The notes under the pieces were generated by a model, which did no database searches, was not told the origin of the DNA, and was given only the letters and a program-made list of their open reading frames with translations. From Rhodobacterales bacterium (GTDB lineage Bacteria > Pseudomonadota > Alphaproteobacteria > Rhodobacterales > Rhodobacteraceae): a stretch of 64,000 bases of DNA. Each line of letters begins with the position of its first letter. The stretch's first letter is position 1. Position numbers and translations under genes: made by a program. The stretch is from positions 62,001 to 126,000 of the forward strand of contig PDRZ01000015.1 of assembly GCA_002747035.1 (NCBI GenBank), written 5' to 3'. This document shows positions 9,261 to 48,647 of the stretch, in pieces.

Positions 9261-9309
9261 TAAAGTGTTTCCACATCATGCTGAGTCAACGTAATGCGGA
9301 AACGCTTTA
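9261..9309 (+). repeat. Dispersed palindromic repeat, short copy R2
   Basis: A 49-bp element running TAAAGTGTTTCC, then ACATCATGCTGAGTCAACG, then TAATGCGGAAACGCTTTA. The termini are inverted repeats (TAAAGYGTTTCC / GGAAACGCTTTA). It matches R1 (inverted) and the right halves of the long copies R3 and R4. Confidence 0.85.
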
Positions 9310-37337: not shown

Positions 37338-38240
37338 TTATTTTGTCGCGGATGTCAGTCCATCAGCCACTGTGCGCGATGTCACGCTCAGAAGATCAAG
37401 GTATGTTGGCACCTCACCATCCGGTTCACTCAAGCTGTCAACATACAGGACGCCACCGTAGGAAACACCGGTTTCTCGTGCCACCTGTTCGGCCGGGGCG
37501 GTGTTGACCGTGCTTTCACAGAACACGACAGGAATGTTATGTTTCCGCACACCATCGATAACGGCGCGCACCTGCTGGGGCGTACCGACCTGATCAGCGT
37601 TCATTGGCCACAGATACAATTCCTTCATGCCAAAATCACGCGCGAGGTAGCTGAATGCTCCTTCGCAGGTTACCAGCCAGCGGCGATCTTCCGGGATTTC
37701 TGCAATGGCGGCGCGCAATGGCTCAATAGTTGCGCGAAGCTTTGCCTTGTAGGCGTCGGCATTCGCCATGTAGGTTTCAGCATTTTCAGGGTCTTGCTCA
37801 ATGAAGGCCTTCACAATGTTGTCGATGTAGATAAGTGCGCTGTCCAGGGCCATCCAGGCGTGGGGGTTCGGCTTGCCCTGGTAGCTACCCGAAGAAATGG
37901 AGATTGGATCAATCCCTTCGGTCAGCGTGGCGGATGGCACGCCTTTCAGATTGGTCAGGAACTGTTCGAACCAAAGTTCCAGATTCATGCCATTCCACAA
38001 AATCAGGTCAGCATCAGATGCACGCACGATATCTTGCGGTGTCGGTTCATACCCATGAATTTCAGCGCCTGGCTTGGTGATGGACACCACATCTGCCGCG
38101 TCCCCCGCCACATTCGAAGCCATATCGGCAAGCACTGTAAAGGTCGTGACAACCTTCATGCGCTCCTCTGCCAAAGCACCGGAGGCACAGGTCGCTGTGA
38201 TCGTCGCGACGGCTGTCGCTTTAAGGAATCGGGATAGCAT
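37338..38240 (-). CDS. sitA: Mn/Fe-binding periplasmic protein (cluster A-I, ZnuA/SitA family)
   Basis: A 300-aa substrate-binding protein with a signal peptide (MLSRFLKATAVATITATCAS, cleaved near ALA-EE). Metal ligands expected for Mn/Fe-type members are seen as His in EIHGYEPTPQD, His in PNPHAWMAL, Glu in VTCEGAFSYL and Asp in VLYVDSLSEPDG. The absence of a His-rich loop argues against a zinc-type ZnuA. It leads the sitABCD operon, whose promoter carries two Mur-box-like palindromes. Confidence 0.93.
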   Translation of the reverse strand: MLSRFLKATAVATITATCASGALAEERMKVVTTFTVLADMASNVAGDAADVVSITKPGAEIHGYEPTPQDIVRASDADLILWNGMNLELWFEQFLTNLKGVPSATLTEGIDPISISSGSYQGKPNPHAWMALDSALIYIDNIVKAFIEQDPENAETYMANADAYKAKLRATIEPLRAAIAEIPEDRRWLVTCEGAFSYLARDFGMKELYLWPMNADQVGTPQQVRAVIDGVRKHNIPVVFCESTVNTAPAEQVARETGVSYGGVLYVDSLSEPDGEVPTYLDLLSVTSRTVADGLTSATK

Positions 38241-38339: not shown

Positions 38340-38456
38340 TTAAAGCGTTTCCAGTTATTGTCGGATCACAGCAATAGCTGGAAACGCCCACACTCCTGAT
38401 ATGTTGTGCGGCGTTTCCGCAACACGCTGAGTCAACGTCATGTGGAAACGCTTTAA
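38340..38456 (+). repeat. Dispersed palindromic repeat, long copy R3
   Basis: A 117-bp composite element bounded by exact inverted termini TTAAAGCGTTTCC and GGAAACGCTTTAA. It contains two hairpin modules: GTTTCCAGTTATTG...CAATAGCTGGAAAC and GTTTCCGCAACACG...CGTCATGTGGAAAC. The right module is the same as the short copies R1 and R2. It is inserted between the Mur boxes and the Fur/Mur gene. Confidence 0.88.
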
Positions 38457-38483
38457 GAAGCTTAAAACGCTTAGGATGCCAAA

Positions 38484-38906
38484 ATGAGCGCAGTGCCCGA
38501 TGAAATAGATTGCATGCTACGCGAAGCAGGCATCCGCGTCACACAACAACGACGAACAGTTATCGCCGTTTTGGTTCAAAGCGATGATCACCCCAGTGCT
38601 CAAGACGTTTATGCACGTACCAAATTGGTAGACAGCAGTGTGTCTTTTGCGACCGTTTACCGCGCGCTCGCTATTCTGGCAGGTGCTGGCATTGTCCAGC
38701 GCATTGCTGTAGACGATGGTCCTGCCCGATTTGAAATGGCACCAGAAACCGAACATGATCATTTAGTTGATGTTGACAACGGTGAGGTGCTGGAACTGGC
38801 ATCTGAAGAGTTGACTGCTCTAAGATCGCGTCTGGCTGCTGAGCTTGGTTATATAATTATCAGTCAGCATTCGGTTCTTCGAGTGCGTAAGCTTAAAAAG
38901 TCATGA
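38484..38906 (+). CDS. Fur-family metalloregulator (likely Mur)
   Basis: A 140-aa Fur-family repressor: winged-helix DNA-binding N-terminus with RVTQQRRTVIAVL and the recognition segment VSFATVYRALAILAGAGIV, then a dimerisation/metal region with EHDHLVDVDNGEVLEL (HxH ligand). It lacks the CxxC structural zinc pairs near the C-terminus. Position next to sitABCD and Mur-box-like operators supports the manganese-sensing branch (Mur), although Irr or true Fur cannot be excluded from sequence alone. Confidence 0.85.
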   Translation: MSAVPDEIDCMLREAGIRVTQQRRTVIAVLVQSDDHPSAQDVYARTKLVDSSVSFATVYRALAILAGAGIVQRIAVDDGPARFEMAPETEHDHLVDVDNGEVLELASEELTALRSRLAAELGYIIISQHSVLRVRKLKKS

Positions 38907-39038
38907 TGCTGTCAAATTTTAAGCAGCGTCAGGGGGCTAACCCTCATACACGGAGTTTCGGATACGCCCCCCATAGATCGGTCAAAGTAGATTCTTTGCC
39001 ATCCTCCGCTGCATGATGGACATATAAAACTCTATATA

Positions 39039-39068
39039 TTGACACTCGCCTGACCTATGACGCAATAT
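39039..39068 (+). promoter_or_regulatory. Sigma-70-type promoter candidate for the B12-riboswitch transcript
   Basis: TTGACA at 39039-39044 and CAATAT at 39063-39068, 18 bases apart, directly upstream of the riboswitch aptamer. Confidence 0.4.
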
Positions 39069-39069
39069 A

Positions 39070-39245
39070 CCGTTGCTTCGGTTCTTTCGATTCCTGTCGA
39101 AAGCTAAGAGGGAAACCGGTGAAACTCCGGCGCTGCCCCCGCAACTGTAAGCGGAAAGTTCGGCTGAATGCGCCACTGAAAGCACAGTTTTGGGAAGGCC
39201 AGTTTGAACGATGATCCGCAAGTCAGGAGACCTGCCGTAGCCTGA
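39070..39245 (+). ncRNA. Cobalamin (B12) riboswitch upstream of nrdHIEF
   Basis: The core contains the signature segments in order: AAGAGGGAAACCGGTGAAAC, CCGGCGCTGCCCCCGCAACT, GTAAGCGG, CCACTG, GGGAAGGC and AAGTCAGGAGACCTGCC. It lies ~90 bp before nrdH on the same strand. The known logic is repression in the presence of adenosylcobalamin, so the B12-independent class Ib reductase would be made only when B12, and hence a class II enzyme, is short. The expression platform between 39245 and 39330 was not resolved. Confidence 0.95.
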
Positions 39246-39330
39246 ATGATGACCACGAACGGAGGGTTCGGGGGCGTGTGGCGGGACTATCCCGTGGCGT
39301 CCTCGGATTTGATAAAAGAACAGAGGACAA

Positions 39331-39552
39331 ATGAGCATTACCGTGTATTCAAAACCCGCTTGCGTTCAATGCACCGCGACGACCCGTGCATTGGACGCCA
39401 AAGGTATCAGCTATGATGTGGTTGATCTGACCGAAGATGACAGTGCAATGACCCGCGTGACTGAACTGGGCTATCGTCAGGTCCCCGTGGTTGTTGCGGG
39501 CAGTGATCATTGGTCGGGTTTCCGCCCCGACATGATCGCGCAACTGGCCTGA
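39331..39552 (+). CDS. nrdH: Glutaredoxin-like NrdH
   Basis: A 73-aa redoxin that reduces class Ib ribonucleotide reductase. The active site CVQC lies at residues 11-14 in the strand SITVYSKPACVQCTATTRAL; the C-terminal WSGFRPDMI is the NrdH-specific stretch. AGAGGA stands 5 bases before ATG. First gene of nrdHIEF, controlled by the B12 riboswitch. Confidence 0.95.
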   Translation: MSITVYSKPACVQCTATTRALDAKGISYDVVDLTEDDSAMTRVTELGYRQVPVVVAGSDHWSGFRPDMIAQLA

Positions 39553-39555
39553 TCC

Positions 39556-39981
39556 ATGGTCGCGCCGATCCCGGCGCTGGTCTATTTCTCATCGAAATCC
39601 GGAAACACCCATCGCTTTGTAACGCGGTTGGGACTGCCCGCTTTCCGCATTCCGGTTGAGGCCGATCAGTTGCCTGACCCTACGGACCCTTATGTTCTGA
39701 TCTGCCCAACCTATGCCGATGGCGACGGGCGCGGGGCCGTTCCGAAACAGGTGATCCGTTTTTTGAACGACCCGGCCCGCCGCGCCGGGATCATCGGGGT
39801 GATCGGCACCGGCAATCGCAATTTCGGGGCGACCTACGCCCTGTCCGGTCGCATCATTGCGCAGAAATGCAAGGTGCCACTGCTCTATTCCTTCGAGTTG
39901 GCAGGAACTGAAACAGACATCGCCCGCGTCCGCGCCGGGCTTGAAAACCTAGGGAGACACCAATGCTCGACAGCAGCATAA
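39556..39981 (+). CDS. nrdI: Flavodoxin-like NrdI
   Basis: A 141-aa FMN protein that supplies the oxidant for assembling the dimanganese-tyrosyl cofactor of NrdF. The phosphate loop is [13 protein letters not shown], followed by [15 protein letters not shown] and [18 protein letters not shown], all NrdI-specific. It starts 3 bp after nrdH and overlaps the nrdE start by 19 bp. Confidence 0.95.
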
Positions 39982-42086
39982 ACGAACAGGACTATCACGC
40001 ACTGAACGCGATGCTGAACCTGTACGATGGTGAGGGGAAGATCAGGTTCGATGCCGACCGCATGGCCGCGCGGCAGTATTTCCTGCAACACGTGAACCAG
40101 AATACTGTATTTTTCCATTCGCTGGATGAAAAACTGGGCTATCTGGTGTCGGAAGGCTATTATGAAGAGGCCGTTCTGGATCAGTATTCCAAGAACTTCA
40201 TGCGCAAAATCTGGGACGCGGCCTATGCCAGGAAATTTCGGTTCCCGACCTTTCTGGGCGCGTTCAAATATTACACCTCTTACACGCTGAAAACCCGCGA
40301 TGGGCAGCGGTTTCTGGAGCGTTACGAGGATCGCGTTGTCATGACCGCGCTGGCGCTGGCGCGCGGTGATGAGGCGCAGGCCATGTCTTTTATGGAAGAA
40401 ATCCTGGATGGCCGATTCCAACCCGCCACCCCCACCTTTCTGAACGCGGGAAAAGCCTCGCGCGGTGAGCTGATCTCATGCTTCTTGCTGCGTCTGGAAG
40501 ATAACATGGAAAGCATCGGTCGTGGCATCAACTCGGCCCTGCAGCTGTCCAAACGAGGCGGCGGCGTGGCGCTGCTGCTGACTAACATCCGCGAACATGG
40601 TGCCCCGATCAAAGGCATCGAAAACCAGTCCTCGGGCGTGATCCCTGTGATGAAACTGCTGGAGGACAGTTTTTCCTATGCCAACCAGCTGGGTGCGCGG
40701 CAAGGCGCGGGTGCCGTCTATCTGAACGCACATCACCCGGATATCATGCGGTTCCTCGACACCAAGCGTGAAAACGCGGATGAGAAAATTCGTATCAAAA
40801 CCTTGAGCCTTGGGGTGGTGATCCCTGACATCACCTTTGAACTGGCGAAGAAAAACGCCGACATGTACCTGTTCTCGCCGCATGACGTGGAAAAGGTTTA
40901 TGGCGTGCCCTTCTCGGACATCTCGGTCACCGAGAAATATTACGAGATGGTGGATGACAAACGCATCCGCAAATCCAAAATCAACGCGCGTGAACTCTTC
41001 CAGACCATTGCTGAGATCCAGTTCGAAAGCGGCTATCCTTACGTGATGTTTGAAGACACGGTGAACCGGATGAACCCCATCGCGGGCCGCATTAACATGT
41101 CTAACCTGTGTTCGGAAATCCTGCAGGTCAATGAGGCGTCCGAGTTCAACGACGATCTCAGCTATGCCCATCTGGGCACGGATATTTCCTGCAACCTCGG
41201 CTCGCTGAACATTGCCAAGTCGATGGATGGCGGAGATCTGGGCCGCACAGTCGGGGCTGCGATCCGCGCACTGACCGCGGTGTCCGAGATGTCGGCGATT
41301 GACTCGGTGCCGTCGATCCGTCGTGGCAATGATGAAAGTCACGCCATTGGGCTGGGGCAGATGAACCTGCACGGATTTCTGGCGCGGGAACATATCCACT
41401 ATGGCTCGCCCGACGGGGTTGAGTTCACGTCCGTGTATTTCGCCACTGTAGCTTACCACGCAATCCGCACTTCCTGCGATCTGGCGCAGGAGCGCAAAGC
41501 GTCGTTCAAAGGGTTCGAAGATTCGGATTACGCCTCGGGCACGTTCTTCGACAAATACACTACCCGCGATTGGCTGCCCGAAAGCGACCGTGTAAAAGCG
41601 CTGTTTGAGGGCATGACCCTGCCCACACGCGACGATTGGGAGGCGTTGAAGGCTGATGTAATGAGCCATGGCCTCTATAACCGGAACCTTCAGGCCGTGC
41701 CGCCGACCGGGTCGATCAGCTATATCAACAACTCGACCTCTTCGATCCATCCCATCGTATCCAAGATCGAAATACGCAAGGAGGGCAAGATCGGTCGTGT
41801 CTATTACCCCGCAGCCTTCATGAACAATGACAACCTCGAATACTACCGCGATGCCTATGAGATTGGGCCCGAGGCGCTGATCGACACATACGCGGCGGCC
41901 ACCGAACATGTCGATCAGGGCCTGTCCCTGACCCTGTTCTTCCCGGCTGAGGCCACAACCCGTGACATCAACCGCGCGCAAATTTACGCGTGGAAGAAAG
42001 GCATCAAAACCATCTATTACGTGCGTCTGCGCCAGGAGGCCCTTGAGGGGACCGAAGTGCAAGGCTGCGTATCCTGTACGTTGTAA
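39963..42086 (+). CDS. nrdE: Class Ib ribonucleotide reductase, alpha subunit
   Basis: A 707-aa catalytic subunit reducing ribonucleoside diphosphates. The active-site Cys of the first beta strand is in [13 protein letters not shown], the radical-site region includes [31 protein letters not shown] follows near residue 580, and the C-terminal redox pair is VQGCVSCTL. There is no N-terminal ATP-cone, as expected for class Ib. The start overlaps nrdI by 19 bp. Confidence 0.96.
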
Positions 42087-43070
<984 letters not shown>

Positions 43071-43094
43071 TGCCGAAAGACACCCTGAAAATCG

Positions 43095-43143
43095 TTAAAG
43101 CGTTCGACCTTTAACCTGAGACAGGGAAAAGGGCGAACGCCTT
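43095..43143. repeat. Related palindromic element R5 (possible nrdF terminator)
   Basis: A 49-bp element beginning TTAAAGCGTTCGACCTTT and ending AAAAGGGCGAACGCCTT. The arms CGTTCGACCTTT and AAAGGGCGAACG pair with one mismatch. It shares the TTAAAGCGTT end and 49-bp length with R1-R4 but differs inside, so it may be a distinct, related family. It lies 24 bp after nrdF. Confidence 0.55.
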
Positions 43144-43253
43144 GGACCAAGCGGAACGATCCAAAATAAAGCGATCCGCAATCTAAAAAATTTGGGGCGG
43201 TCCACGGGAAAATCACCGCGTGGTCGGGAGGAAGCGTGTTCCGTGGCGCGGGG

Positions 43254-44162
43254 TCAGACCGCGTGGCCCAGATGTTTTTCGCCGCGTTTTTCCGCCAGCG
43301 CGATTTGTTTCTGGCGTTCGCGGAACCGGGCCTTGTCTGCGTCGGATGTTTTGTCGATGCACAGGTGGCAGCTTACTCCGTGTTCGTATTCCGGGCGTTC
43401 GCGATCTTCCGGCAGGATCGGGCAACGGCAGGCATGGCACAGCTTGTGCGGTCCTTCTTCCAACCCGTGCCCAACGGATACGCGCCCGTCGAACACGAAG
43501 CATTCCCCGTCCCAGGTGCTGGTTTCCTTTGGCACCTCTTCGAGGTATTTCAGGATCCCGCCCTTGAGGTGATACACCTCGTCAATTCCCTGGCCCAACA
43601 AGAAGTTGGTGGACTTCTCGCACCGGATACCTCCGGTACAGAACATGGCGATACGCTTGTTGTGGAACCGGTCCTTGTTCTCTTCCCACCACGCCGGGAA
43701 ATCGCGGAAGGTTTCGGTTTTCGGGTCGATTGCGCCCTGGAACGTACCAATGGCCACTTCGTAATCGTTGCGCGTGTCGATCACTGCCACATCCGGGCTC
43801 TGGATCAATTCGTTCCAGTCTTCGGGGGCCACGTAATGCCCGACGCCGGCCCGCGGATCCACATCCGGTTGCCCCATGGTTACGATCTCTTTCTTCAGCT
43901 TCACCTTCATGCGACCGAAAGGCTGATCGGTGGCAGTGCTGTCTTTCCAGACGATATCGGCGCAGCCCGGCAGAGTCTGAATATGTCGCAGGACCTGGTT
44001 CAGCCCCTCGGGCTGGCCCGCGATTGTGCCATTGATGCCTTCGCGGGCGAGCAAAAGCGACCCCGTGATCCCATGAGCCAGGCACAGGTCGACCAGCGGT
44101 TGGCGCAGCGCGGCGGGGTCATCGAAACGGGCGAAGTGGTAGAGGGCGCGAAGTGTATACAT
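43254..44162 (-). CDS. trhO: tRNA uridine(34) hydroxylase TrhO (rhodanese-domain protein)
   Basis: A 302-aa YceA/TrhO protein that makes 5-hydroxyuridine at position 34 of some tRNAs using O2. N-terminal acylphosphatase-like domain (GSLLLAREGINGTIAGQ), then a rhodanese domain with the catalytic Cys in MFCTGGIRCEKSTNFLL, and a C-terminal Cys/His-rich zinc-like tail (CHACRCPILPEDRE, then CHLCIDKTSD). ATG at 44162 is chosen because the longer reading to 44474 overlaps the divergent pncA and lacks family similarity. Confidence 0.94.
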   Translation of the reverse strand: MYTLRALYHFARFDDPAALRQPLVDLCLAHGITGSLLLAREGINGTIAGQPEGLNQVLRHIQTLPGCADIVWKDSTATDQPFGRMKVKLKKEIVTMGQPDVDPRAGVGHYVAPEDWNELIQSPDVAVIDTRNDYEVAIGTFQGAIDPKTETFRDFPAWWEENKDRFHNKRIAMFCTGGIRCEKSTNFLLGQGIDEVYHLKGGILKYLEEVPKETSTWDGECFVFDGRVSVGHGLEEGPHKLCHACRCPILPEDRERPEYEHGVSCHLCIDKTSDADKARFRERQKQIALAEKRGEKHLGHAV

Positions 44163-44262
44163 GAGACGCGATTTACGCCTGTTGCGCCTTTTGAACAAGG
44201 GGGTGCGACCATTGACGACAGCGGGTCCGCCCCCTACCCATGGGGCAAAGAAGGAGACGCTC

Positions 44263-44859
44263 ATGACCCAGGCGCTGATTGTTATCGACGTACAAAACGA
44301 TTTTTGCCCCGGGGGGGCGTTGGCCGTGCCGGGCGGGGATGACATTGTTGCCGGGGTCAACGTCTTGATGTCGGATTTCGACCATGTGGTGCTGACACAG
44401 GACTGGCACCCGGCCGGGCACTCTTCGTTTGCCTCGTCGCATGGCGGCGCGTCTCCGTATGAGATGATCGACATGCCCTATGGGGCACAGGTGTTGTGGC
44501 CGGATCATTGTGTTCAGGGCACCGGTGGGGCGGCGTTTCACTCCGATCTTGAAACCGCGCCTGCGCGGTTGATCCTTCGCAAGGGGATGAATCCGGGCAT
44601 CGACAGTTATTCCGCATTTTTTGAAAATGATCGTGAAACCCCCACGGGGTTGGACGGATACCTGCGCGGGCTTGGGGTTTCACGGCTGACCATGGTGGGG
44701 CTGGCCACGGATTTCTGCGTGCAATACTCGGCGCTGGACGCAGCCCGGCTTGGGTTTGACGTGACCGTGCGCACCGATCTGTGCCGGGCTATCGACCTTG
44801 ACGGATCGCTTGCGGCGGCGATGGCGGCGATGGCGGCCGAGGGCGTGACGCTGAGTTGA
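44263..44859 (+). CDS. pncA: Nicotinamidase
   Basis: A 198-aa hydrolase converting nicotinamide to nicotinate. It has the catalytic Asp in VIDVQNDFCPGGAL, metal ligands in TQDWHPAGHSSFA, catalytic Lys in LILRKGMNP and nucleophilic Cys in GLATDFCVQYSALDA. AAGGAG is 6 bases before the ATG at 44263. NAD-salvage partner pncB lies 2.4 kb downstream on the same strand. Confidence 0.95.
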   Translation: MTQALIVIDVQNDFCPGGALAVPGGDDIVAGVNVLMSDFDHVVLTQDWHPAGHSSFASSHGGASPYEMIDMPYGAQVLWPDHCVQGTGGAAFHSDLETAPARLILRKGMNPGIDSYSAFFENDRETPTGLDGYLRGLGVSRLTMVGLATDFCVQYSALDAARLGFDVTVRTDLCRAIDLDGSLAAAMAAMAAEGVTLS

Positions 44860-44943
44860 TTCGGTTTCGGGAAAGTTGGGCAAATCTTAAGGAATCGCGC
44901 GGTATCACGGTGAGGTGCATGAAAACCTTTGTGGCCTTCCGGG

Positions 44944-47184
44944 ATGATCCTGAACGAAACCGATACTGCGACACGCCTGACCGAATTTGACGCGCGCCAT
45001 TCGCCCGCCGGACGCTTGCGCAGCTATGCGCGTGGGCGCGTACAGTTTTTGTTGCCGCGTTTTGGGTTCGAGGTGAGCGTGGCCTTTGGCATTGCGCTGT
45101 TCTATTCCCTTCCTCTTGGTATGGTGTTGTTTGCGCTGCTGGTTGTGGGTGAGGCGGTCGATTGCCTCTACCTGCGCACTGTACCGGCCAAGCTGGACGC
45201 TGGCGCGCCGGTTTCGCGCCTGATAAACATCAGCACGGCGGTGGGGCTGTTCCACGGGGTGACCCTTACCCTTTCGCCCGTCATAGCCTGGTTCGTTTCC
45301 CCTGATCATGCGGTGTCGAGCCTGTGCCTGGCCTATCTCTCGGGGGCCTCGATCAATGCTGGGTTGATGATGCCCTATCTCCGGCTCCTCTCCATCTTGC
45401 GCCTTGGACTTTACGTGATTACCGGGGGTGTGCTGTTGCTGAGCGAAGTGTTCGAGGGCGCACATTTTCACGAGCACTACTATTATGATCTTTTGGCCGG
45501 GATCATCATGCTTTATATCGTGCGGACCTTCCGCAAATTCTCGACCGACCGGTTTGAATCGGATCATTTGGCCAAACGCGAGCTGTTGGTGCAAAGTCAG
45601 CTTCTGGCCCTTGCAAACCGCGAAATGCGCAGCCTGGCGGTCGTGGCCCAATATGCCAACGAAAGCGTGATCCTGTCGGACGGCAAGGGGCGTATCAAAT
45701 GGGTGAATGATGCCTTTACCCGCATCACCGGATTTGCGCGCCACGAAACGATTGACCGGCGGCCCGGTGATCTGCTGAACGGGGAGGATACCGACCCGGA
45801 AACGGTGGCAGGTATCGACGAAGCGATCAAGCAGGGTCTGCCGCATCGCGCCGAGATATTGAATTACACGCGCGACGGGCGCCAGATCTGGGTCGAAACC
45901 AATCTTGTGCCGCTCCTTGATGCCAAGGGGCGGGTGGAACAGGTCATCGCGATTGAACACGACATCACACAATCCAAGGAACAGCAACAGCATCTGGCCA
46001 ATGCCAAGGAAGCGGCAGAGCGGTCCGCAGAGGCCAAATCACGGTTTCTCGCCACGATGAGCCACGAAATTCGCACGCCAATGAACGGGATCATTGGTAT
46101 GACCGAACTGCTTGGGGCCTCTGATCTTTCGCCAGAGCACCGGCGGTATCTGGATACGATCCAGGAATCGGCCGAGGCGCTGTTGACCCTGATCAACGAC
46201 ATTCTCGAATATTCGCGGTTCGAATCCGGGCGCCCGTCGATCCATGCCGAAGAGTTCGATATTCAGTCCTGCCTTGACGGTGTTGAGGCGCTGATGCGAC
46301 CCCAGGCCGAGCGGAAGGGTCTGTACCTGAACTTCGGCTGTCGCGATGTGCCAACCCTGCCCCGGCGCGCAATCGGGGATGGTGGGCGTATTCGTCAGAT
46401 CCTGCTGAACATCGTTGGCAATGCGATCAAGTTCACGTCGTCCGGGGGCGTGTCCGTGGCAGTCGAATGCGAAGAAGAGGATGGGCACTTCCGGCTGGCC
46501 TTTATTGTCACCGATACCGGGATCGGCGTGGCGGATGACAGGATCGAACAGATATTTGAAGAATTTGTTCAGGCCGAATCCGACACCACGCGCAAATATG
46601 GAGGCACCGGATTGGGGCTGGCTATCTCGCGTTTGCTGGCGCGGGAAATGGGCGGAGACATCACAGTCACCTCGACACTTGGAAAAGGGTCCTGCTTTCG
46701 CGTCGAAATCATTGTGGGGCGGGCGCAACAGGATGGTGCGGAACGCGGGGTACAGGTGCCGGAGGCTGCTCACCAATCCAGACCGCTTCGCATCCTCGTC
46801 GCCGAGGATAACAAAACCAACCGGCTCTTGATCCACAAGTATCTGGACCAGTCCGACACGATTACCTATTTCGCCGTGAATGGGGTCGAAGCCGTTGAAA
46901 TGGCGGCCGAGCTGGCGCCAGATCTGATTTTCATGGACATGTCGATGCCGGAAATGGATGGTCTTGAGGCGACGCGCGCCATCCGCCAACTGGACATTCC
47001 GCAACCCCCCATCGTGGCCTTGACTGCAAATGCGTTCGCCTCGGACAAGGATGCCTGCAAAAAAGCGGGTATGACCGGCTTTCTGACCAAACCGTTGCGC
47101 AAGAAAGAGCTTTTTGCCGTTCTGGCCGAACATCAACCGCTAAACGCTCAGGAAACTGGACAACCGCGAGGGCAATTGCTTTAA
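44944..47184 (+). CDS. Hybrid sensor histidine kinase/response regulator
   Basis: A 746-aa membrane-bound hybrid kinase between pncA and pncB. Residues ~30-200 carry about six hydrophobic segments (FALLVVGEAVDCLYL, VGLFHGVTLTLSPVIAWFV and others). A PAS domain follows (~210-335: VILSDGKGRIKWVNDAFTRI and a PAC-like EVIAIEHDITQSKEQ-type end), then a coiled linker. HisKA has the phospho-His in TMSHEIRTPMNG, HATPase has ILLNIVGNAIKFT, DTGIGV and GGTGLGLAIS, and a C-terminal receiver has the phospho-Asp in IFMDMSMPEMDGLEATRAI. No cognate output gene is adjacent. ATG at 44944 is the best start, though its ribosome site is weak. Confidence 0.93.
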   Translation: MILNETDTATRLTEFDARHSPAGRLRSYARGRVQFLLPRFGFEVSVAFGIALFYSLPLGMVLFALLVVGEAVDCLYLRTVPAKLDAGAPVSRLINISTAVGLFHGVTLTLSPVIAWFVSPDHAVSSLCLAYLSGASINAGLMMPYLRLLSILRLGLYVITGGVLLLSEVFEGAHFHEHYYYDLLAGIIMLYIVRTFRKFSTDRFESDHLAKRELLVQSQLLALANREMRSLAVVAQYANESVILSDGKGRIKWVNDAFTRITGFARHETIDRRPGDLLNGEDTDPETVAGIDEAIKQGLPHRAEILNYTRDGRQIWVETNLVPLLDAKGRVEQVIAIEHDITQSKEQQQHLANAKEAAERSAEAKSRFLATMSHEIRTPMNGIIGMTELLGASDLSPEHRRYLDTIQESAEALLTLINDILEYSRFESGRPSIHAEEFDIQSCLDGVEALMRPQAERKGLYLNFGCRDVPTLPRRAIGDGGRIRQILLNIVGNAIKFTSSGGVSVAVECEEEDGHFRLAFIVTDTGIGVADDRIEQIFEEFVQAESDTTRKYGGTGLGLAISRLLAREMGGDITVTSTLGKGSCFRVEIIVGRAQQDGAERGVQVPEAAHQSRPLRILVAEDNKTNRLLIHKYLDQSDTITYFAVNGVEAVEMAAELAPDLIFMDMSMPEMDGLEATRAIRQLDIPQPPIVALTANAFASDKDACKKAGMTGFLTKPLRKKELFAVLAEHQPLNAQETGQPRGQLL

Positions 47185-47215
47185 CCGGGCGACAACTTGT
47201 TGCAAGGGCTTCGTC

Positions 47216-48508
47216 ATGGTGGATATCGCAACCCGCGTCTGGAACCATAAATGGAAGATTGATCCGATCGTACGATCACTGATTGACAATGACTTCTACA
47301 AACTCCTGATGTGCCAATCGGTGTTTCATAACAAACCCGATGCTCATGTGACGTTCAGCCTGATCAACCGATCCAGGGATGTGCGCCTTGCCGAACTGGT
47401 TGACGAAGGCGAGCTGCGCGAACAATTGGACCATATCCGCTCACTCTCTCTCACACGGGGCGAAAGCACCTTCCTGCGCGGTAACACCTTTTATGGCAAA
47501 CGCCAGATGTTCCGCCCGGATTTCATGGAATGGTTCGAAAACCACCAGTTGCCCGACTATCACCTTGAAAAACGTGATGGTCAGTATGAGCTGACCTTCG
47601 AAGGTAAATGGCACGAGGTCATGTTGTGGGAAATTCCGGCGCTGGCCGTTCTGATGGAACTGCGGGGCCGCGCCGTGTTGGACGACATGCGCAAATTCGA
47701 ACTCCAGGTGCTTTATGCCCGCGCCATGACCAAGATATGGGAAAAAATCGACCGGCTGCGCAACCTTCCCGATCTGCGCATCGCCGATTTTGGCACCCGG
47801 CGGCGGCATTCCTATCTGTGGCAGGATTGGTGTGTTCAGGCGATGATCGAAGGGTTGGGGAACAAATTCATTGGCACGTCGAATTGTCGGATCGCCATGC
47901 AGCGCGATATCGAGGCGATTGGCACAAATGCCCACGAACTGCCCATGGTCTATTCCGCGCTGGCCGAAAACGACGCCGATCTTGCCCAGGCACCTTACCA
48001 GGTGCTTGAGGACTGGCAACGCGAACACGAAGGTAATCTGCGGATCATCCTGCCGGACACGTACGGCACAAATGGGTTTCTTGAGCGCGCGCCCGACTGG
48101 CTGGCGGGCTGGACCGGCATCCGTATCGACTCGGGCGATCCGGCGACGGCGGCCGAGGGGGCAATCGAATGGTGGACATCCCGTGGCGAAGACCCGCGCG
48201 AGAAGCTGATCATTTTCTCCGACGGGCTGGATGTGGACCGGATCATCGAACTGCACACCCTGTTTCATGGCCGGGCCAAGATTTCTTTCGGTTGGGGCAC
48301 CCTGTTGACCAATGATTTCCGTGGGCTCACCACGGGCGACAACCTCGCCCCTTTCTCTCTGGTCTGCAAGGCGGTCGCGGCGAACGGACACCCGACCGTC
48401 AAACTGTCCGACAACCCCAAAAAGGCCATGGGGCCTGCGGAAGAAATCGACCGCTATAAGCGCGTGTTCGGGGTGGGCGATCAGCGCAGCGTGGACGTCA
48501 TTGTTTAA
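47216..48508 (+). CDS. pncB: Nicotinate phosphoribosyltransferase
   Basis: A 430-aa enzyme making nicotinate mononucleotide from nicotinate and PRPP. The start SLIDNDFYKLLMCQSVFH is the typical substrate-binding N-terminus, then FGTRRRHSYLWQDWCVQAM near residue 200, FIGTSNCRIAMQRDIEAIGT with catalytic-region His in AHELPMVYSAL, and SDGLDVDRIIELHTLFHGR near 340. It takes the product of pncA onward to NAD. Its end is followed by long repeat R4. Confidence 0.95.
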   Translation: MVDIATRVWNHKWKIDPIVRSLIDNDFYKLLMCQSVFHNKPDAHVTFSLINRSRDVRLAELVDEGELREQLDHIRSLSLTRGESTFLRGNTFYGKRQMFRPDFMEWFENHQLPDYHLEKRDGQYELTFEGKWHEVMLWEIPALAVLMELRGRAVLDDMRKFELQVLYARAMTKIWEKIDRLRNLPDLRIADFGTRRRHSYLWQDWCVQAMIEGLGNKFIGTSNCRIAMQRDIEAIGTNAHELPMVYSALAENDADLAQAPYQVLEDWQREHEGNLRIILPDTYGTNGFLERAPDWLAGWTGIRIDSGDPATAAEGAIEWWTSRGEDPREKLIIFSDGLDVDRIIELHTLFHGRAKISFGWGTLLTNDFRGLTTGDNLAPFSLVCKAVAANGHPTVKLSDNPKKAMGPAEEIDRYKRVFGVGDQRSVDVIV

Positions 48509-48531
48509 ACCTGCTAAGTGCGAAAAAACTG

Positions 48532-48647
48532 TTAAATCGTTTCCAGGTATTGTTGGATCACAGCAAGAACTGGAAACGCTCACATCCATACTGTGTTGCG
48601 CAGCGTTTCCACATCACGCTGAGTCAACGTAATGCGGAAACGCTTTA
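48532..48647 (+). repeat. Dispersed palindromic repeat, long copy R4
   Basis: A 116-bp composite element with the same two-hairpin layout as R3: left module GTTTCCAGGTATTG...CAAGAACTGGAAAC, right module GTTTCCACATCACGCTGAGT through CGTAATGCGGAAAC, and termini TTAAATCGTTTCC / GGAAACGCTTTA. It lies between pncB and a truncated FkbM gene. Confidence 0.88.

Follow-up and report, generated by a model that had tools for sequence, protein, structure and literature searches.

The Caulobacter CcrM-associated intergenic repeats (CIR) reportedly go back to Chen and Shapiro in 2003. In the accessible part of one source they are ~110 bp long, have TA ends, two arms with a linker and GANTC in one loop, their target duplication is listed as "?" and their terminal inverted repeats as "-", and more information on their movement is asked for (PMC2229807); an excerpt of another calls them strictly intergenic (PMC10969869). 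The accessible part of the former also describes RUP of pneumococcus as ~107 bp, intergenic, targeting TA and having ends like IS630-Spn1 (PMC2229807), and MITEPye1 of Paracoccus yeei, according to a partial description, has IS1182-type ends and 1-3 copies per chromosome (PMC11578231). We analyzed a window, i.e., a stretch of 64,000 nucleotides (C4:62001-126000), from a Rhodobacterales genome (G000; 2.52 Mb, 47 contigs, 77.7% complete) in which an initial annotation had noticed four copies (R1-R4) of a dispersed palindromic repeat, and found that these are probably members of a family of IS630-derived miniature inverted-repeat transposable elements (MITEs). Judged from their sequences, they appear to form a new Rhodobacteraceae family of a known kind, IS630-derived, CIR-like MITEs, with CIR compared by description; a literature search in which few subscription papers were within reach found no paper on this family.

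As far as the accessible descriptions go, the family of R1-R4 (F1) and its sister family (F2) are like CIR in being ~110 bp long, bounded by TA and built of two inverted-repeat arms with a linker, in having GANTC in one arm (though not in every copy) and in lying between genes, but they differ from CIR (CIR1-4 compared by description only) in showing terminal inverted repeats (TAAAGCGT), a duplicated TA and ends like those of IS630. For the mobilizing logic the nearest case is RUP with IS630-Spn1, although host and sequence differ and, unlike RUP as described there, F1 and F2 have two arms, each paired with itself, one with the identity of a left end and the other with that of a right end. ERIC, Correia and REP-BIME are likewise dispersed palindromic intergenic repeats, but their sequences differ from F1 and F2 and their mobilizing enzymes are other or unknown. 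MITEPye1, in the part of its description available, is an alphaproteobacterial MITE of the same group, mostly intergenic and folding into stem-loops (PMC11578231).

All four copies lie where the initial annotation had placed them. The elements of the window are:

2164-2212, - strand: R1, solo arm-2 element, 49 bp from TA to TA; the TAA with which it begins is also the stop of the GMC oxidoreductase open reading frame (ORF) 520-2166
9261-9309, + strand: R2, solo arm-2 element, 49 bp from TA to TA; intergenic
38341-38455, + strand: R3, full F1 composite, 115 bp from TA to TA, in the order arm 1, arm 2
38341-38387, + strand: arm 1 of R3, hairpin resembling the IS630 left end; apex TCGGATCACAG
38411-38455, - strand: arm 2 of R3, hairpin resembling the IS630 right end; apex GACTC on the - strand, a GANTC site
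43096-43141, - strand: partial F2 copy with right end TTAAAGGTCGAACGCTTTA, in a convergent gap 26 bp past a called gene end; absent from the list of the initial annotation
48533-48647, + strand: R4, full F1 composite, 115 bp, ~24 bp past the stop of the NAPRTase ORF 47216-48508

The exact inverted termini of 13 bases (TTAAAGCGTTTCC/GGAAACGCTTTAA) ascribed to all four copies are found in R3 only: R4 starts with TTAAATCG and ends with CTTTAGG, and the termini are TAAAGCGTTCCC/GGAAACGTTTTA in R1 and TAAAGTGTTTCC/GGAAACGCTTTA in R2. Folding z-scores were -5.8 for R3 (+ strand) and -6.8 for R4 (- strand).

The copy number of the R1-R4 family is far above chance. A search of its own genome with the 117-mer, which the initial annotation had suggested as a check, returned the query itself, 38 places of at least about 99 bases and one of 74 bases, all at E <= 1.1e-25 and being the best 40 of 136 candidates. 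The family is widespread, and neither absent elsewhere nor confined to conserved terminators at orthologous gene ends. The terminus TAAAGCGTTTCC (<=1 mismatch) occurs 118 times on the + and 114 times on the - strand of this genome (reversed pattern 9 and 16), and the arm-2 core (<=3 mismatches) 43 and 48 times (reversed control 0 and 0). A profile search, which covered 373,390 bases of the genome, most of them selected because they carry termini or cores of F1, yielded 112 F1 matches: 42 composites (core 115 bp), 44 solo arm-2, 11 solo arm-1 and 15 partial ones, two rows of which (C40 "part" and "A") belong to a single composite split in two by F2. Solo arm-2 elements measure 49 bp in 24 of the 26 copies with both ends caught by the pattern. 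Since the 29 F1 composites compared are 77-96% alike (mean 86.5%), their expansion is not recent, and F1 looks old in the source genome, given its divergent composites, copy-by-copy stem decay and IS630 present as fragments only. Among seven stretches of GTDB contigs with strict F1 ends, the sole clear relative by eye is L037 of Rhodobacterales DOLJORAL78_59_82; another of them, L032, is a long hairpin. The F1 consensus had no match among plasmids and phages, where other sequence types did match plasmids. Candidate elements on viral contigs, collected by end pattern, were rejected: none of the 120 listed stretches has two arms or both inner motifs, and they look like chance because the same arm test recovers 25 of 39 true elements.

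F2, which was reached via the flanks of F1, also measures 115 bp, has the TAAAGCG...CGCTTTA ends of F1 and consists of two hairpins and a linker, with a different interior. It accounts for 18 matches in the own-genome stretches examined, including the partial copy of the window; as these stretches were mostly picked for F1, the F2 counts are lower bounds, and one row (C25:21769) is an F2/F1 chimera tallied under F1 as well. This chimera (L135, G000:C25:21761-21879) fuses F2 arm 1 and linker to F1 arm 2, a composition that suggests module exchange between the two families. The pattern TAAAGCGTN{86,106}ACGCTTTA, which defines the ends only and allows a length of 102-122 bp, was run on 394 genomes of the bacterial family and matches 13 of them, the source genome included, 10 with at least two matches (42 in the source genome, 16 in G363, 11 in G397, eight in G365, six in G293, four in G009, three in G161, two each in G259, G260 and G394, one each in G065, G229 and G261). 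The single-match genomes G065, G229 and G261 count only together with their sequences, because nine other genomes matched the reversed control, once each. The 39 cross-genus sequences range from 105 to 117 bp, 35 of them being 114-117 bp long. Four from G161 and G229 (L181-L184; 105-106 bp, TAAAGCGT ends) differ in fold and interior and are perhaps a third element type. As MITEs do, the 115-bp hairpin pair is small, presumably carries no gene and has terminal inverted repeats (TAAAGCGT ends).

Comparison of insertion sites leads us to read these elements as mobile. At G000:C40:221599-221713 an F2 copy is nested in an F1 arm, reading CCAGC-[TA..TA]-TTGCTG as against the uninterrupted CCAGCTATTGCTG, i.e., with an exact TA duplication. 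Of six plasmid sites followed through eight strains of Aliiroseovarius crassostreae, four are filled in some strains and empty in others (filled/empty: modC 6/2; ectoine synthase 8/0; permease-HTH 5/3; putA 2/6; katG 7/1; gspG 8/0), the filled states being read as bases in few strains and elsewhere deduced from full query coverage. The S056 and S204 plasmids (200 kb each) show no polymorphism at their common sites; it was seen once six more strains were added. The putA site has the sequence GAGC-TA-A in each of the six empty alleles and GAGC-TA[element]TA-A in both filled ones, with the TAA stop of putA at the same place in both. The TA target duplication that marks IS630-derived MITEs is exact both in the nested copy and at putA; the other three polymorphic sites are not clean. 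The term "miniature mobile element" used by the initial annotation fits both this duplication (nested insertion, empty/filled strain polymorphism) and the likeness of the ends to an IS630 subgroup, which is weaker for F1 itself.

Because TA duplication is a hallmark of IS630, copies of this insertion sequence (IS) were examined. A Rhodobacteraceae IS630 subgroup has a left end like the start of arm 1 and a right end like that of arm 2 (TAAAGCGT...TGAATC and TAAAGC...TGAGAC, respectively); Bradyrhizobium and Tardibacter IS630 copies have GAATC at left-end position 23, as do many elements. Plasmid pow41 of Octadecabacter sp. SW4 carries an IS630 of 1,054 bp, whose left end is TAAAGCGTCCCGCCAAAAACCTGAATC and whose right end is TAAAGCATTCCGCCTTTAACCTGAGAC; the best F2 copy matches these ends at 26 of 27 left and 24 of 27 right positions, and nine F2 copies at 22-26 and 20-24. 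Over the outermost ~27 bases on either side this IS and the MITE are alike, closely so for F2, and both have TA at the ends, but the IS has a transposase, whereas the MITE has none and continues each end by its own inverted copy. The ends were readable in 18 of 30 IS630 loci, 11 having TAAAG left ends and seven being TAGAG types with mostly other inner motifs. In the 11 TAAAG-type copies the left inner motif is TGAATC in nine (TGGATC and TGAGTC in the others) and the right one TGAGAC or TGAGGC in eight (TGCAAC, TGATCC and TGCGAC in the others). With positions 9-27 of the two ends taken together, F2 reaches a fit of 35/38 at best and F1 one of 25/38, values attained by none of 500 shuffles each; for positions 9-20 alone, which exclude the motif used for orienting, the F2 fit of 21/24 is reached by none of 300 shuffles, and that of the cross-genus set stands too. 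Of 73 elements, 66 fit better with arm 1 assigned to the left and arm 2 to the right end than with the opposite assignment, and 60 do so when the inner motif, by which the cross-genus elements had been oriented, is disregarded; with a single IS the figures are 52/73 (L369) and 53/73 (L371). Ends matching an autonomous IS630, a further MITE feature, are thus found in F2 and several genera, and in F1 for the outer ends and inner motif only, so that the IS630 link appears close for F2 and indirect for F1.

Several points weigh against an origin of these elements from IS630 by transposition, which is deduced here and was not observed as an event. At C31 an F1 copy lies in F2 without exact TA duplication; the empty alleles at modC and katG read CA, not plain TA, and those at permease-HTH read TGAA, TTAA and ACCA. 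The empty modC allele may be a deletion between AAGC repeats, and the putA polymorphism may be gain or loss of the element. The likeness to IS spans only ~27 bases per end, and the search for IS ends itself required TA and an inverted repeat. At positions 9-20 none of the IS found here fits F1 beyond chance level (14/24 at most, reached by 74 of 300 shuffles), so that three features link F1 with IS630, namely its outer ends, its inner motif and a plan common with F2. The source genome, 77.7% complete, yielded no intact partner IS at E <= 1e-50, only four short DDE_3 fragments. Across the 394 genomes, the 31 carriers of the IS subgroup (E <= 1e-50) and the 13 element carriers overlap in G065 and G259 only, two genomes being about the one expected by chance, and seven of the 12 other element genomes, including the element-rich G363, G365, G397, G293 and G009, gave no DDE_3 match at E <= 1e-5.

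In the cross-genus alignment, a set selected for intact ends, length, ends and apex motifs are constant and the stems vary. Pairs were counted in 35 of the 39 cross-genus elements (33 from other genomes, two own; the four 105-106-bp variants of G161 and G229 excluded) and, for F1, in 29 of 31 composites (two short ones excluded), with the closing point set per sequence, which favors pairing. Stem pairs at unit positions 8-17 are retained in 28-35 of the 35 elements by several pair types, and positions 18-22 drop to 12-33. Positions 14 and 15 are paired within the arm in 34 and 30 elements for arm 1 and in 33 and 33 for arm 2, as compared with ~16-20 of 35 paired at positions 13-14 when the 3' letters are shuffled; end-to-end identity at positions 14, 15, 16 and 17 is seen in 8, 4, 11 and 14 of 35. 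Since stem pairs are retained where end-to-end identity is lost, each arm pairs with itself, and the counts do not support a single long hairpin joining both ends. Within F1, 871 stem cells are unchanged, and the changes comprise 55 one-sided breaks, 46 one-sided pair-keeping changes (28 wobble, 18 Watson-Crick), seven two-sided compensations and 11 two-sided losses. Single copies seem to decay after insertion, and intact elements to hold the fold from lineage to lineage. An alternative source of the stem compensation could be template-switch correction of palindromes.

The mobile form would be the 115-bp composite: TA, a hairpin, a ~23-bp linker, a second, inverted hairpin and TA. The outer ~27 bases of the first hairpin resemble the left end of the IS (AAGCGT outside, TGAATC or TGGATC inside at positions 22-27) and those of the second as its right end (AAGCG outside, TGAGAC or TGACTC inside). 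A transposase acting in trans, presumably of the IS630 subgroup to judge by the ends, would cut both ends and join the element into TA, which becomes duplicated. An element entering a TAA or TAG stop codon at its TA would do no harm, as TA and the first A of the element spell TAA and restore the stop, which offers a simple reason for repeats lying exactly on stop codons. Selection against insertions in genes and promoters would then leave copies at gene ends and in convergent gaps. The 49-bp solo forms may be what remained after a deletion between two copies of the GCGTTTCC or GGAAACGC box, which recurs in both arms.

The distribution itself was determined with gap statistics that lean on a biased sample (stretches chosen for F1) and on simple gene calls from codon usage. 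The statement that all copies are intergenic holds broadly across the genome, as none of 130 matches lies well inside a called gene and seven overlap one by 16-101 bases. In the same stretches, 50 of 102 occupied gaps are convergent, vs. 22 of 204 unoccupied ones (Fisher p=5e-13), and for the window 6 of 45 unoccupied gaps are convergent, by subtraction (p=4e-5). Of 354 called stops, 31 of the TAA type and a single TGA are overlapped by an element terminus.

This placement is one of the grounds on which the elements could be taken for immobile 3'-end structures useful to the host (bidirectional terminators or mRNA stabilizers) kept at orthologous gene ends, and their strong hairpins agree with it. 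Yet the presence or absence within one species at four of six sites, the nested insertion, the IS630-like ends, the predominance of pair-breaking stem changes in F1 (55 one-sided breaks, seven two-sided compensations) and an element end, CTTTA, devoid of a long U-tract make this explanation highly improbable, and a secondary host role may still exist at some sites. The initial annotation had also considered a REP doublet moved by a RAYT (Y1) transposase. Although composites do hold two inverted, similar hairpin units and solo units occur, as in REP/REPIN doublets, PF01797 was unmatched at E <= 1 in the source genome (77.7% complete) and matched in 10 of 14 control genomes, and the TA duplication and IS630-like ends indicate a DDE transposase, so we give this origin almost no credence.

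The apex motif bears on another alternative, in which these are CIR-type repeats existing for CcrM methylation, their apex GANTC being selected for cell-cycle regulation and the elements being regulatory. GANTC is indeed biased toward one arm, with 21/35 in arm 1 vs. 1/35 in arm 2 across genera, 6/9 vs. 0/9 in F2 and, in F1, 20/29 in arm 2 vs. 1/29 in arm 1, and a GANTC in one loop is described for CIR in the accessible part of that source (PMC2229807). TGAATC, however, sits at the identical positions 22-27 in the left end of nine of the 11 IS630 copies, and transposase recognition therefore explains GANTC without CcrM. Moreover, the site is often missing, being present in 14 of 26 solo and 28 of 42 composite F1 copies, and the inner motif of F1 arm 1 is mostly TGGATC, i.e., no CcrM site. 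A primary role in methylation is accordingly unlikely, and we retain the IS630-derived MITE as the best explanation.

We tentatively suggest, as an idea somewhat less probable than its opposite, that the alphaproteobacterial CIR repeats themselves are IS630 MITEs, in which GANTC would be the inner half of a bipartite transposase-binding end (TGAATC, positions 22-27) and only incidentally a CcrM site, methylation may gate transposition after replication, and the self-paired arms would be conserved across genera for mobility, not host function. Gating of this sort is exerted by Dam methylation on IS10 transposition after replication. CIR repeats have been taken as CcrM-associated for twenty years, and GANTC would be reinterpreted if the suggestion is true. 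A CIR-like family with TA duplication, strain polymorphism and IS630-like ends makes the movement mechanism testable, and some "terminator-like" palindromes in Rhodobacteraceae genomes may be such elements.

IS and fragments of IS were also seen next to F1 copies. An F1 composite (L165, G000:C6:70139-70666) adjoins a degraded IS630 transposase fragment with one TAG inside, and another IS630 fragment (L167, G000:C22) is fused to a truncated F1 end. The latter was considered as the autonomous partner and dropped, because its Tardibacter relative continues past the junction and has a left end that does not resemble F1; it is more likely a truncation junction. An IS with the end GGGTCGGGACTCAATTGG, whose reading frame is IS5-like by eye, adjoins F1 at TTA or TAA in five contig-end places of G000:

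C17:1-97
C34:1-127
C34:141748-141838
C43:1-102
C7:28409-28544

GGGTCTGTTGAGATTCA ends occur at two further F1 places (C22:15228 and C43:41089). The elements may be IS hot spots, in a sample that was chosen for elements.

R3 is not sited at a gene end, one of the locations named in the initial annotation, but in the gap shared by the divergent znuA (37338-38240, - strand) and a Fur-family gene (38484-38906, + strand), 28 bp upstream of the ATG of the latter, a 140-aa ORF that the simple gene caller overlooked and that is zur-like by its neighborhood. An effect of R3 on zinc regulation is possible. In an Rfam scan the element gave only a match far below its gathering score; the sole match at gathering score was a cobalamin riboswitch (RF00174, 139.5 bits) at 39062-39253 of the window, downstream of this Fur-family gene, which follows R3.

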